DNA of 49,144 bases, taken from positions 1 through 49,144 of the forward strand of contig SKOR01000011.1 of assembly GCA_007119965.1 (NCBI GenBank), given 5' to 3'. The DNA is from Syntrophomonadaceae bacterium. GTDB taxonomy: Bacteria > Bacillota > Dethiobacteria > DTU022. Below are positions 35,502 to 43,497 of this stretch, in pieces. A program made the position numbers and the translations under genes. Positions within the stretch are counted from its first letter, which is position 1. Each line of letters starts with the position of its first letter. Below the pieces are notes generated by a model. The model did not search any database and was not told the DNA's origin. It was given only the letters and a program-made list of their open reading frames with translations.

Positions 35502-35546
35502 AAACCTACGGAGTGAAACTCACTCCTTCAAATGGAACAGGTTTCA
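35502..35546 (-). promoter_or_regulatory. Candidate bacterial SECIS element
   Basis: Immediately after the TGA (35546-35544, minus strand) lies an upper stem GGAGTGA-GTT-TCACTCC (35526-35510): 7 bp with a 3-nt loop whose first base is G. The loop starts 24 nt after the TGA, inside the 16-37 nt range known for bacterial SECIS elements. Outer AAACCT/AGGTTT pairing (35544-35539 with 35507-35502) closes the structure. No T tract follows, so it is not a terminator. Confidence 0.7.
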
Positions 35547-35918
35547 GTAACAATGCCCCAGTTCACGGACTTCATTGCTGCGGGTTGGCAGACAGGGACA
35601 AACATGCTCCGGAATATTCTCAAATCGGCAGGGGCAGTAAAAATCGCCGTACAACTCGTTTTTGCCAAGCAGGCCCTCTATGACCAATTCCTTGTCTTCA
35701 TTAAAAGTGTACCCGCGCAGACGGGCAAAATTTTCCGACCGGTTGCGGATTTCTGTTTCCGGATCCTGCGGATAACGGGATGCGGCAATTTCCGGTTCCA
35801 GGGCTGTTATTTGCAGCTCGGCGCCGCAGATCGTACAGGTCACTACCTTACCTATTTCAAGTTCGTCGCGGTATAGAAATGAGAGGCGGCAAACTTCGCA
35901 GTAAACTTTATGTTTCAT
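35520..35918 (-). CDS. Ferredoxin:thioredoxin reductase-type catalytic subunit, probable selenoprotein (Sec125)
   Basis: A conventional reading stops at TGA 35546-35544 after 124 residues, ending GHCY. Read through, the product has 132 residues, ending GHCY-U-NLFHLKE. Residues 1-40 form a zinc ribbon (C7, C10, C28, C31) like that of LysW. Residues about 60-132 match the FTR beta chain: FARLRGYTFNEDKELVIEGLL, then C95-P-C97, C107-P-C109 and C123-Y-U125. In Synechocystis FTR the matching cysteines are cluster ligands 55, 74, 76 and 85 and redox-active 57 and 87, so Sec replaces active-site Cys87. Homologues continue C-G-L-F there. A SECIS-like hairpin follows. It overlaps glutaredoxin, its likely partner. 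ATG at 35918 has GAGG 9 nt upstream. Alternative: a truncated or misread gene. Confidence 0.72.
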
Positions 35919-36156
35919 TTTTAAGCGCCTCATCAATCTTGTCTTCCTTGTAACCGGTAATCACCACTTCATTTATAACAGTTACAGGAAAGGACCGCTT
36001 GCCGGTCAGTTTTTCCACTTCTTCAAGGGCCTTTTTCTGCTCTTCACCCTGGACCATGTCCACATCGACGACATCATACTGCACATCTTTATCGTCGAGA
36101 TATTTCTTAACCTTTTTGCACCACGGGCATGTGCTTAAAGCATAAACCTTTACCAT
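35908..36156 (-). CDS. Glutaredoxin/NrdH-like thioredoxin-fold protein
   Basis: An 82-residue glutaredoxin-fold protein: MVKVYALSTCPWCKKVKKYL with a dithiol CPWC site (C10, C13), then VDVDMVQGEEQKK and the cis-Pro segment SFPVTVINEVVITGYKEDKI. ATG at 36156 has GAGGTG about 8 nt upstream; an ATG five codons earlier is less well placed. It lies 23 nt after serA and overlaps the FTR-like gene by 11 nt, which argues for a shared function: the FTR-like enzyme probably reduces this protein with electrons from ferredoxin. Glutathione is uncommon in such anaerobes. Confidence 0.9.
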   Translation of the reverse strand: MVKVYALSTCPWCKKVKKYLDDKDVQYDVVDVDMVQGEEQKKALEEVEKLTGKRSFPVTVINEVVITGYKEDKIDEALKNET

Positions 36157-42051: not shown

Positions 42052-43497
42052 TTAACTTTCAATACCGGCGATAACTCTGGCCAGGTTTTTCTTATGATCC
42101 AGGTCGGCCTGGCGGCCAATCATGATTCGCTGAGCCTGTGGCGAGCCGGCACCGTGCATTGATTCGGTCCGGTAACCGACAGCGGCAGTCCCGAGGGCGA
42201 TATTCTCAATCAGGCGCATCACTCTCATCCTCTGTTCGGTGGGCGCCGCCGCTGTGCCTTTCAGATACTTTTCAATATATTTTCCGATTTCGGGATGGCG
42301 GTAATCTTTTTCGGAAGGCAGGGTTACCATTAACCCCCCGGCGATATCCTCGGCCAGACGGGCAATTTCATAAGGGAAGCGAGTTACATTTTGCTTACAC
42401 ACATTGGCCAGGAGCATATCGATCAGGTAGGTGCCCGAAGCAGTTGCCTCCCCCTGGCTCGAACAGGCAATCCCGCAGGCATAGAGTGTTTCATTAAGAT
42501 GGACCATCTCGATCAATTTATCCCTGATATGTGAAGCCCCGGCGGTGCCGTTATACTCGGCGGCGAGGGCGGCAGCTCCAATCAGGACATCGCCGACTCC
42601 TACTTTGCAGCCGCCGTAGCTCTGGCGGTGGTATCCGGCAAAACGTTCAACCAGGTCCCCGGTATAACTATATTCGCCACACATGAAAACCCTTTCCCAG
42701 GGGATAAAAAGATCATCGAAAATAACCAGGCACTCATGCCCGCCGTAATGACAGTTGCCTACATCGATCTCTGTACCTTCCAGCCGGCGGGTATCGCAGG
42801 ACTGCCGGCCGTATATATAGGTTATTCCGTCTGTTCCTGACGGGACAGCAAAGCATACCGCATAATCAGCATCTTCTTCTCCCATCGCCATTGTAGGCAT
42901 AACCAGGATTTCGTGAGCTGACAGGGCCCCGGTTTGGTGGGCCTTTGCCCCCCTGACCAGGATACCTTCCTTTTCCCTGCGCACAACACGCAGGTACAAA
43001 TCGGGATCAGCCTGATTTGAAGGCCGCAGCGAACGATCGCCCTTGGGATCGGTCATCGCTCCCTCTACAACGAGATCATTATCCTGGACATGGAGTAAAA
43101 AGCTGCGAAAGCGCCGGTGATATCCAATGTTCAGGTCTCTTTCCATTTCATAAGTAACGCTGTCCACAGCATTGAAAGCATCCATACCGACGCAGCGTTG
43201 AAAACAGGCTGCTGTTTTTTGCCCCAGAAGCCGCTGCATCTTTACCTTGCTGATTAAATCATCCGCACCCTGGTGGAGGTGGGTGAAACGGTTAACAGTC
43301 TTCCCGCTGAGGCCGGACCTTGCTGTCAGTAAACCTTTACACGAGGGAGCGCCGGCCAACTCATAGCTTTGAGCCACAGCATTGATCGACGGCCTGATCA
43401 TCGGGTGATCGACTATGTTTTCCACCCTTTCGCCAAACATAAAAGCCCTGTAATTGATCCTGCGCAGGGAAGTGAGGTACTGTTCTGCAGTCATCAT
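42052..43497 (-). CDS. abfD: 4-hydroxybutyryl-CoA dehydratase / vinylacetyl-CoA delta-isomerase
   Basis: A 481-residue flavin- and [4Fe-4S]-dependent dehydratase, very close in pattern to clostridial AbfD. All four cluster ligands are kept: C98 and C102 (ACFQRC), H290 and C297 (GYHRQSYGGC). It dehydrates 4-hydroxybutyryl-CoA to crotonyl-CoA by a ketyl-radical mechanism, a key step in GABA, succinate or 4-hydroxybutyrate fermentation. No CoA transferase or 4-hydroxybutyrate dehydrogenase is near, so it might also serve as the isomerase alone. The sequence is clearly closer to AbfD than to 4-hydroxyphenylacetate hydroxylases. ATG start with AGGAGG upstream. Confidence 0.92.
   Translation of the reverse strand: MMTAEQYLTSLRRINYRAFMFGERVENIVDHPMIRPSINAVAQSYELAGAPSCKGLLTARSGLSGKTVNRFTHLHQGADDLISKVKMQRLLGQKTAACFQRCVGMDAFNAVDSVTYEMERDLNIGYHRRFRSFLLHVQDNDLVVEGAMTDPKGDRSLRPSNQADPDLYLRVVRREKEGILVRGAKAHQTGALSAHEILVMPTMAMGEEDADYAVCFAVPSGTDGITYIYGRQSCDTRRLEGTEIDVGNCHYGGHECLVIFDDLFIPWERVFMCGEYSYTGDLVERFAGYHRQSYGGCKVGVGDVLIGAAALAAEYNGTAGASHIRDKLIEMVHLNETLYACGIACSSQGEATASGTYLIDMLLANVCKQNVTRFPYEIARLAEDIAGGLMVTLPSEKDYRHPEIGKYIEKYLKGTAAAPTEQRMRVMRLIENIALGTAAVGYRTESMHGAGSPQAQRIMIGRQADLDHKKNLARVIAGIES

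Follow-up and report, generated by a model that had tools for sequence, protein, structure and literature searches.

A probable glutaredoxin-linked ferredoxin:disulfide reductase of anaerobic Bacillota with selenocysteine predicted beside a [4Fe-4S] cluster

Results and Discussion

The locus and the question it raises

In a 49,144-nucleotide contig from a Syntrophomonadaceae bacterium (SKOR01000011.1 of assembly GCA_007119965.1; hereafter the window), a gene resembling the catalytic subunit of ferredoxin:thioredoxin reductase (FTR) runs into a TGA close to its end. Does the protein stop there, or is the codon read as selenocysteine (Sec), and what would such a protein do? An earlier note on this DNA, made from the sequence alone, had proposed a selenocysteine-containing FTR with the TGA at the second cysteine of the last C-x-C motif. 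Our reading matches its frame and TGA and supplies the strand, which the note left unstated (Table 1). The frame holds one in-frame TGA only, at codon 125, and closes with a second at codon 133. Its translation, which begins MKHKVYC and has GHCY before U125, is MKHKVYCEVCRLSFLYRDELEIGKVVTCTICGAELQITALEPEIAASRYPQDPETEIRNRSENFARLRGYTFNEDKELVIEGLLGKNELYGDFYCPCRFENIPEHVCPCLPTRSNEVRELGHCY-U-NLFHLKE-stop. The sequence of the adjacent glutaredoxin-like protein includes MVKVYALSTCPWCKK. The window is one contig (C93) of a 2.34 Mb assembly that is 96.6% complete, and the closest relatives of this genome are Syntrophomonadaceae MAGs, sediment isolates by most of their names.

Table 1. Features of the locus, in window coordinates.
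Feature	Position	Strand	Remarks
Sec-containing FTR/FDR-like gene (predicted)	35520..35918	minus	132 residues, Sec at 125; PF02943 match
Sec UGA codon (codon 125)	35544..35546	minus	aligned with Cys87 of plant-type FTR
bSECIS hairpin	35510..35526	minus	5' arm GGAGUGA 35526..35520, loop GUU 35519..35517, 3' arm UCACUCC 35516..35510
True stop codon UGA (codon 133)	35520..35522	minus	within 5' arm of SECIS stem
FTR-like [4Fe-4S]/disulfide domain up to Sec codon	35547..35750	minus	residues 57-124
N-terminal LysW-like zinc-ribbon domain	35790..35903	minus	CxxC...CxxC, residues about 6-43; below Pfam cut-off
Glutaredoxin-like partner gene (CPWC)	35908..36156	minus	82 aa from conserved ATG; 11-nt overlap with FTR start

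An FTR-type protein beside a glutaredoxin

With Cys written for Sec, the protein scores 47.7 bits against PF02943 (FeThRed_B; cut-off 22), and the raw genome frame scores 42 bits. Six cysteines in CPC / CPC / CxC order, Sec being the sixth, are invariant in 29 aligned homologues. Alignment to structures 1dj7 and 7pwe places C95-P-C97 and C107-P-C109 on the two CPC motifs and C123-Y-U125 on the CxC motif, with Sec125 on its last Cys, in agreement with the note's assignment of the residue to the column of the active-site Cys87. By the established numbering, we take these pairs to be C55/C57, C74/C76 and C85/C87 of FTR; Sec125 would then presumably sit at the place of the cluster-facing Cys87, with the thioredoxin-attacking Cys57 kept as C97. 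The predicted structure (pLDDT 94.9) matches FTR and FDR structures with a Foldseek probability of 1.00, and its best PDB match is 7pwe, a Grx/FDR fusion. The N-terminus resembles a LysW zinc ribbon, with a profile score below cut-off and with LysW also given there by Foldseek. The window copy was the only FTR-type gene found in its genome, and no homologue was found in a phage collection and PHROGs.

A glutaredoxin-like gene with a CPWC motif lies directly upstream, overlapping or abutting, in 52 of the 53 loci, whether the FTR-like gene is of the Sec or the Cys form, with a few readable only in part. No conserved third gene was apparent near the pair in the ORF listing of seven loci. From the gene order and the fusion relative we infer that this glutaredoxin is the likely substrate: the FTR-like protein would probably reduce its neighbor with electrons from ferredoxin, as a ferredoxin-to-glutaredoxin reductase. 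A selenoprotein serving some other partner, such as a thioredoxin, a peroxiredoxin or ribonucleotide reductase, is an unlikely though serious alternative: thioredoxins are the substrates of plant FTR, but the constancy of the gene pair and the glutaredoxin fused to the closest solved relative both speak against it. No match to FtrA (PF02941) was obtained in the 96.6% complete window genome, while a control cyanobacterium gave one. With no FtrA and a glutaredoxin encoded next to it, the enzyme is better called a "ferredoxin:disulfide (glutaredoxin) reductase" than an FTR; the note's label holds for the catalytic-chain homology and is loose as a name.

Two loci showed possible frame or assembly breaks. 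The partner glutaredoxin of L070 can be read only in part; for L079, neither the FTR N-terminus nor the glutaredoxin was found.

Relation to known reductases and selenoproteins

The window protein shares the catalytic-chain fold and the CPC...CPC...CxC order with plant and cyanobacterial FTR (1dj7, 7bzk). Those enzymes are heterodimers with FtrA and have Cys87 in place of Sec, and the loop between the two CPC motifs is shorter in the window protein. The Desulfotalea psychrophila protein 7pwe likewise has these Cys motifs in its FTR-type domain and an attached glutaredoxin, but it is a single fusion rather than two overlapping genes and has Cys where the window has Sec. Methanosarcina acetivorans 4tpu, a ferredoxin-dependent disulfide reductase by its entry title, also has an FTR-type domain; it carries Cys for Sec and an extra domain (the molecule is named rubredoxin) after the FTR domain, whereas the extra domain of the window protein comes before it.

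FTR selenoproteins have been predicted before. The Global Ocean Sampling (GOS) study of 2008 predicted two marine sequences, one with two Sec (PMC2398784), and later reviews list one FTR selenoprotein family, CxU (PMC9312934, PMC13188914). The earlier note's remark that it was aware of no characterised FTR selenoprotein therefore stands for experiment, none having been found in the literature searched (mostly without subscription papers), and overlooks computational predictions that date from 2008. These proteins and the NF041072 family (FtrB_double_U) resemble the window protein in being FTR catalytic-chain homologues with Sec in the last C-x-U at the redox-active Cys. NF041072 is a double-Sec family, however, whereas the window protein has one Sec, keeps C97 and, at 20.4 bits, stays far below the cut-off of 160, which places it outside that family. 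It further differs in its zinc ribbon, in the overlapping glutaredoxin gene and in coming from anaerobic Bacillota, the GOS forms having come from marine metagenome reads. A search made mostly without subscription papers brought up no report of a single-Sec, zinc-ribbon, glutaredoxin-linked form, which leaves priority uncertain. None of the other NCBIfam FTR models appeared for 29 members. No curated NCBIfam model recognises the clade above its cut-off, so that annotation may truncate the protein.

The downstream hairpin and its embedded stop codon

The earlier note had proposed looking for a bacterial SECIS, and one is present: a covarying hairpin downstream of the UGA that fits the published model. 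That model asks for a 3-9 nt loop, 4-16 bp, a G in the first two loop positions, a spacing of 16-37 nt and an MFE <= -7.5 (PMC13188914). The window hairpin, GGAGUGA-GUU-UCACUCC, has a 3 nt loop, 7 bp, 24 nt spacing and an MFE of -10 kcal/mol, and agrees with every listed criterion. All 37 TGA forms have a hairpin of 6-10 bp with a G in the first two loop positions, and in all of them the loop starts 23-24 nt downstream of the UGA. In an ungapped alignment of the stem, two-sided changes occur at 8 of 8 tested pairs. Double-change cells number 33, whereas shuffles gave 11.6 +/- 2.6 and none of 500 reached that count; every slid register had fewer of them than the true one. Once the register is corrected per sequence, stem positions 22-26 are paired in every sequence. 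A gathering scan of the window with Rfam gave no matches and was not used as evidence on the bSECIS.

Might the hairpin instead be a transcription terminator, the UGA being read through near-cognate read-through or a changed code? Some encouragement comes from the Cys homologues: a comparable hairpin is missing in 6 of 11, and the remaining five have a longer one at a similar place, of varied spacing and lacking the fixed loop, which is possibly a terminator. Against this, no T run follows the window hairpin, the fixed spacing and early-G loop accompany the TGA forms, UGA also terminates the same protein, and the genome has the complete Sec machinery, with selA, selB and selD clustered on one contig (C91, 61-66 kb) and the tRNA-Sec gene (selC) on another (C34). 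We consider this explanation very improbable.

In most sequences the SECIS 5' arm includes the stop codon, a feature that the earlier note did not mention. Eight codons past the Sec UGA, 24 of 37 sequences have UGA and 10 have UAA or UAG; three have CAG there, and their proteins run on. The untranslated 3' arm covaries with the arm that holds the stop codon. With a stop UGA eight codons past the Sec UGA and in the same hairpin, one UGA would be Sec and the other a stop.

Directly at the stop codon, three Atribacterota Cys forms (L080, L081, L083) carry a 12-bp hairpin, much where Sec forms have their SECIS. It is probably a terminator, and it could also be raw material for a SECIS.

Conservation and selection across the TGA

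The class was represented by 98 genomes, and 33 of them carry a homologue with exactly one internal TGA, so the window TGA is not a chance event, and the TGA falls at the same codon in the homologues whose sequences were read out. The family appears rare outside this class, with a homologue in 7 of 398 genomes in a wider phylum sample. The Sec codon is TGA in all 37 distinct homologues of the TGA form and TAA or TAG in none. At the aligned column, 37 TGA forms exchange with 15 Cys forms, the Sec/Cys exchange expected of a selenoprotein. Among 24 close relatives, pN/pS is 0.08 over the five codons past the TGA and 0.19 upstream of it, and it rises to about 1.0 in the same frame beyond the final stop; 13 more distant sequences give 0.30 after and 0.24 before the TGA. 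Low values past the TGA and values near 1.0 past the stop indicate that translation continues through the former and ends at the latter.

A mechanical reading does yield an ORF that ends at the TGA, as a natural 124-residue truncation or a decaying gene would. This reading is hardly tenable, and we rejected it on codon conservation, selection and the SECIS: TGA occurs without any TAA or TAG, the codons past it are under purifying selection, a covarying SECIS follows, and the residues past it match the C-x-C-x-L-F tail of the Cys homologues. That the UGAs of codons 125 and 133 both encode Sec in a longer protein is equally hard to credit, since the second codon, for all its 24 UGAs, is TAA or TAG in 10 other sequences, sits in the SECIS stem instead of preceding a SECIS, and leads into a frame that evolves neutrally (pN/pS about 1.0).

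The earlier note had also named three findings that would tell against a Sec-containing FTR, and none turned up. The genome has selA, selB, selC and selD, the column holds Sec or Cys in the homologues, and sequencing error is excluded because dozens of independent genomes carry the same TGA. On this comparative sequence evidence, the FTR-like gene of the window almost certainly encodes a selenoprotein.

Proposed mechanism and implications

Taken as a whole, the locus is very probably best explained as encoding a Sec-containing single-chain ferredoxin:disulfide reductase with the FTR catalytic-chain fold and a partner glutaredoxin. In the mechanism that we propose, SelB, charged tRNA-Sec and the downstream hairpin would decode the UGA of codon 125 as Sec, a step for which the sequence support is strong. 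C95, C107, C109 and C123 are predicted to bind the [4Fe-4S] cluster. By alignment and FTR chemistry, C97 and Sec125 would form an active-site selenenylsulfide beside the cluster, the counterpart of Cys57-Cys87 in FTR. Reduced ferredoxin would deliver electrons singly by way of the cluster, the CPWC disulfide of the partner glutaredoxin would be attacked by C97, and Sec125 would remain by the cluster and stabilize the half-reduced state. More speculatively, the zinc ribbon might provide docking, substituting for the FtrA subunit that this genome lacks.

Homologues of this clade occur in dozens of genomes, among them those of Desulfotomaculum copahuensis LMa1 and Pelotomaculum propionicicum MGP; with named strains among them, a natural enzyme is open to study. 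We think it likely that they form a widespread and unrecognised clade of single-Sec ferredoxin:glutaredoxin reductases, in which selenium by the [4Fe-4S] cluster would act as a relay and the stop codon has been absorbed into the SECIS stem. The pairing of the two genes suggests that anaerobic Bacillota have a ferredoxin-to-glutaredoxin route of thiol reduction. With Sec at the position that faces the cluster, the enzyme would permit a direct test of how selenium affects the [4Fe-4S]-thiol chemistry long studied in plant FTR, and the Sec and stop UGAs, eight codons apart, offer a small natural system for testing the positional specificity of a SECIS. Where the TGA is annotated as a stop, the protein is shortened and its active site lost.

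Sec machinery and Cys forms

The Sec column holds Cys in all nine genomes without tRNA-Sec and selA, which also gave no selB match above cut-off; eight of these are Atribacterota or group with them, and one is a Clostridia MAG. The remaining six Cys forms come from genomes with selA and selB, so Sec is not indispensable. Among TGA-form MAGs of the class, the search for tRNA-Sec found none in eight; all eight gave a selB match (seven above cut-off, one partial), and six have selA. At least four Sec/Cys changes are needed on the tree, which is poorly resolved, and a single origin is still conceivable.

Several minor observations accompany these results. L077, from a record labelled uncultured actinobacterium, falls in the tree with Atribacterota, yet tRNA-Sec and selA/selB are present; its bin may be mislabelled or mixed. 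The selD of the window genome (L090, G000:C91:64720-65649), which adjoins selA and selB, has one in-frame TGA and probably also encodes a selenoprotein. Elsewhere in the window, the ORF at 42052-43497 resembles 4-hydroxybutyryl-CoA dehydratase by eye (MMTAEQYLTSLRRINYRAFMFGERV).
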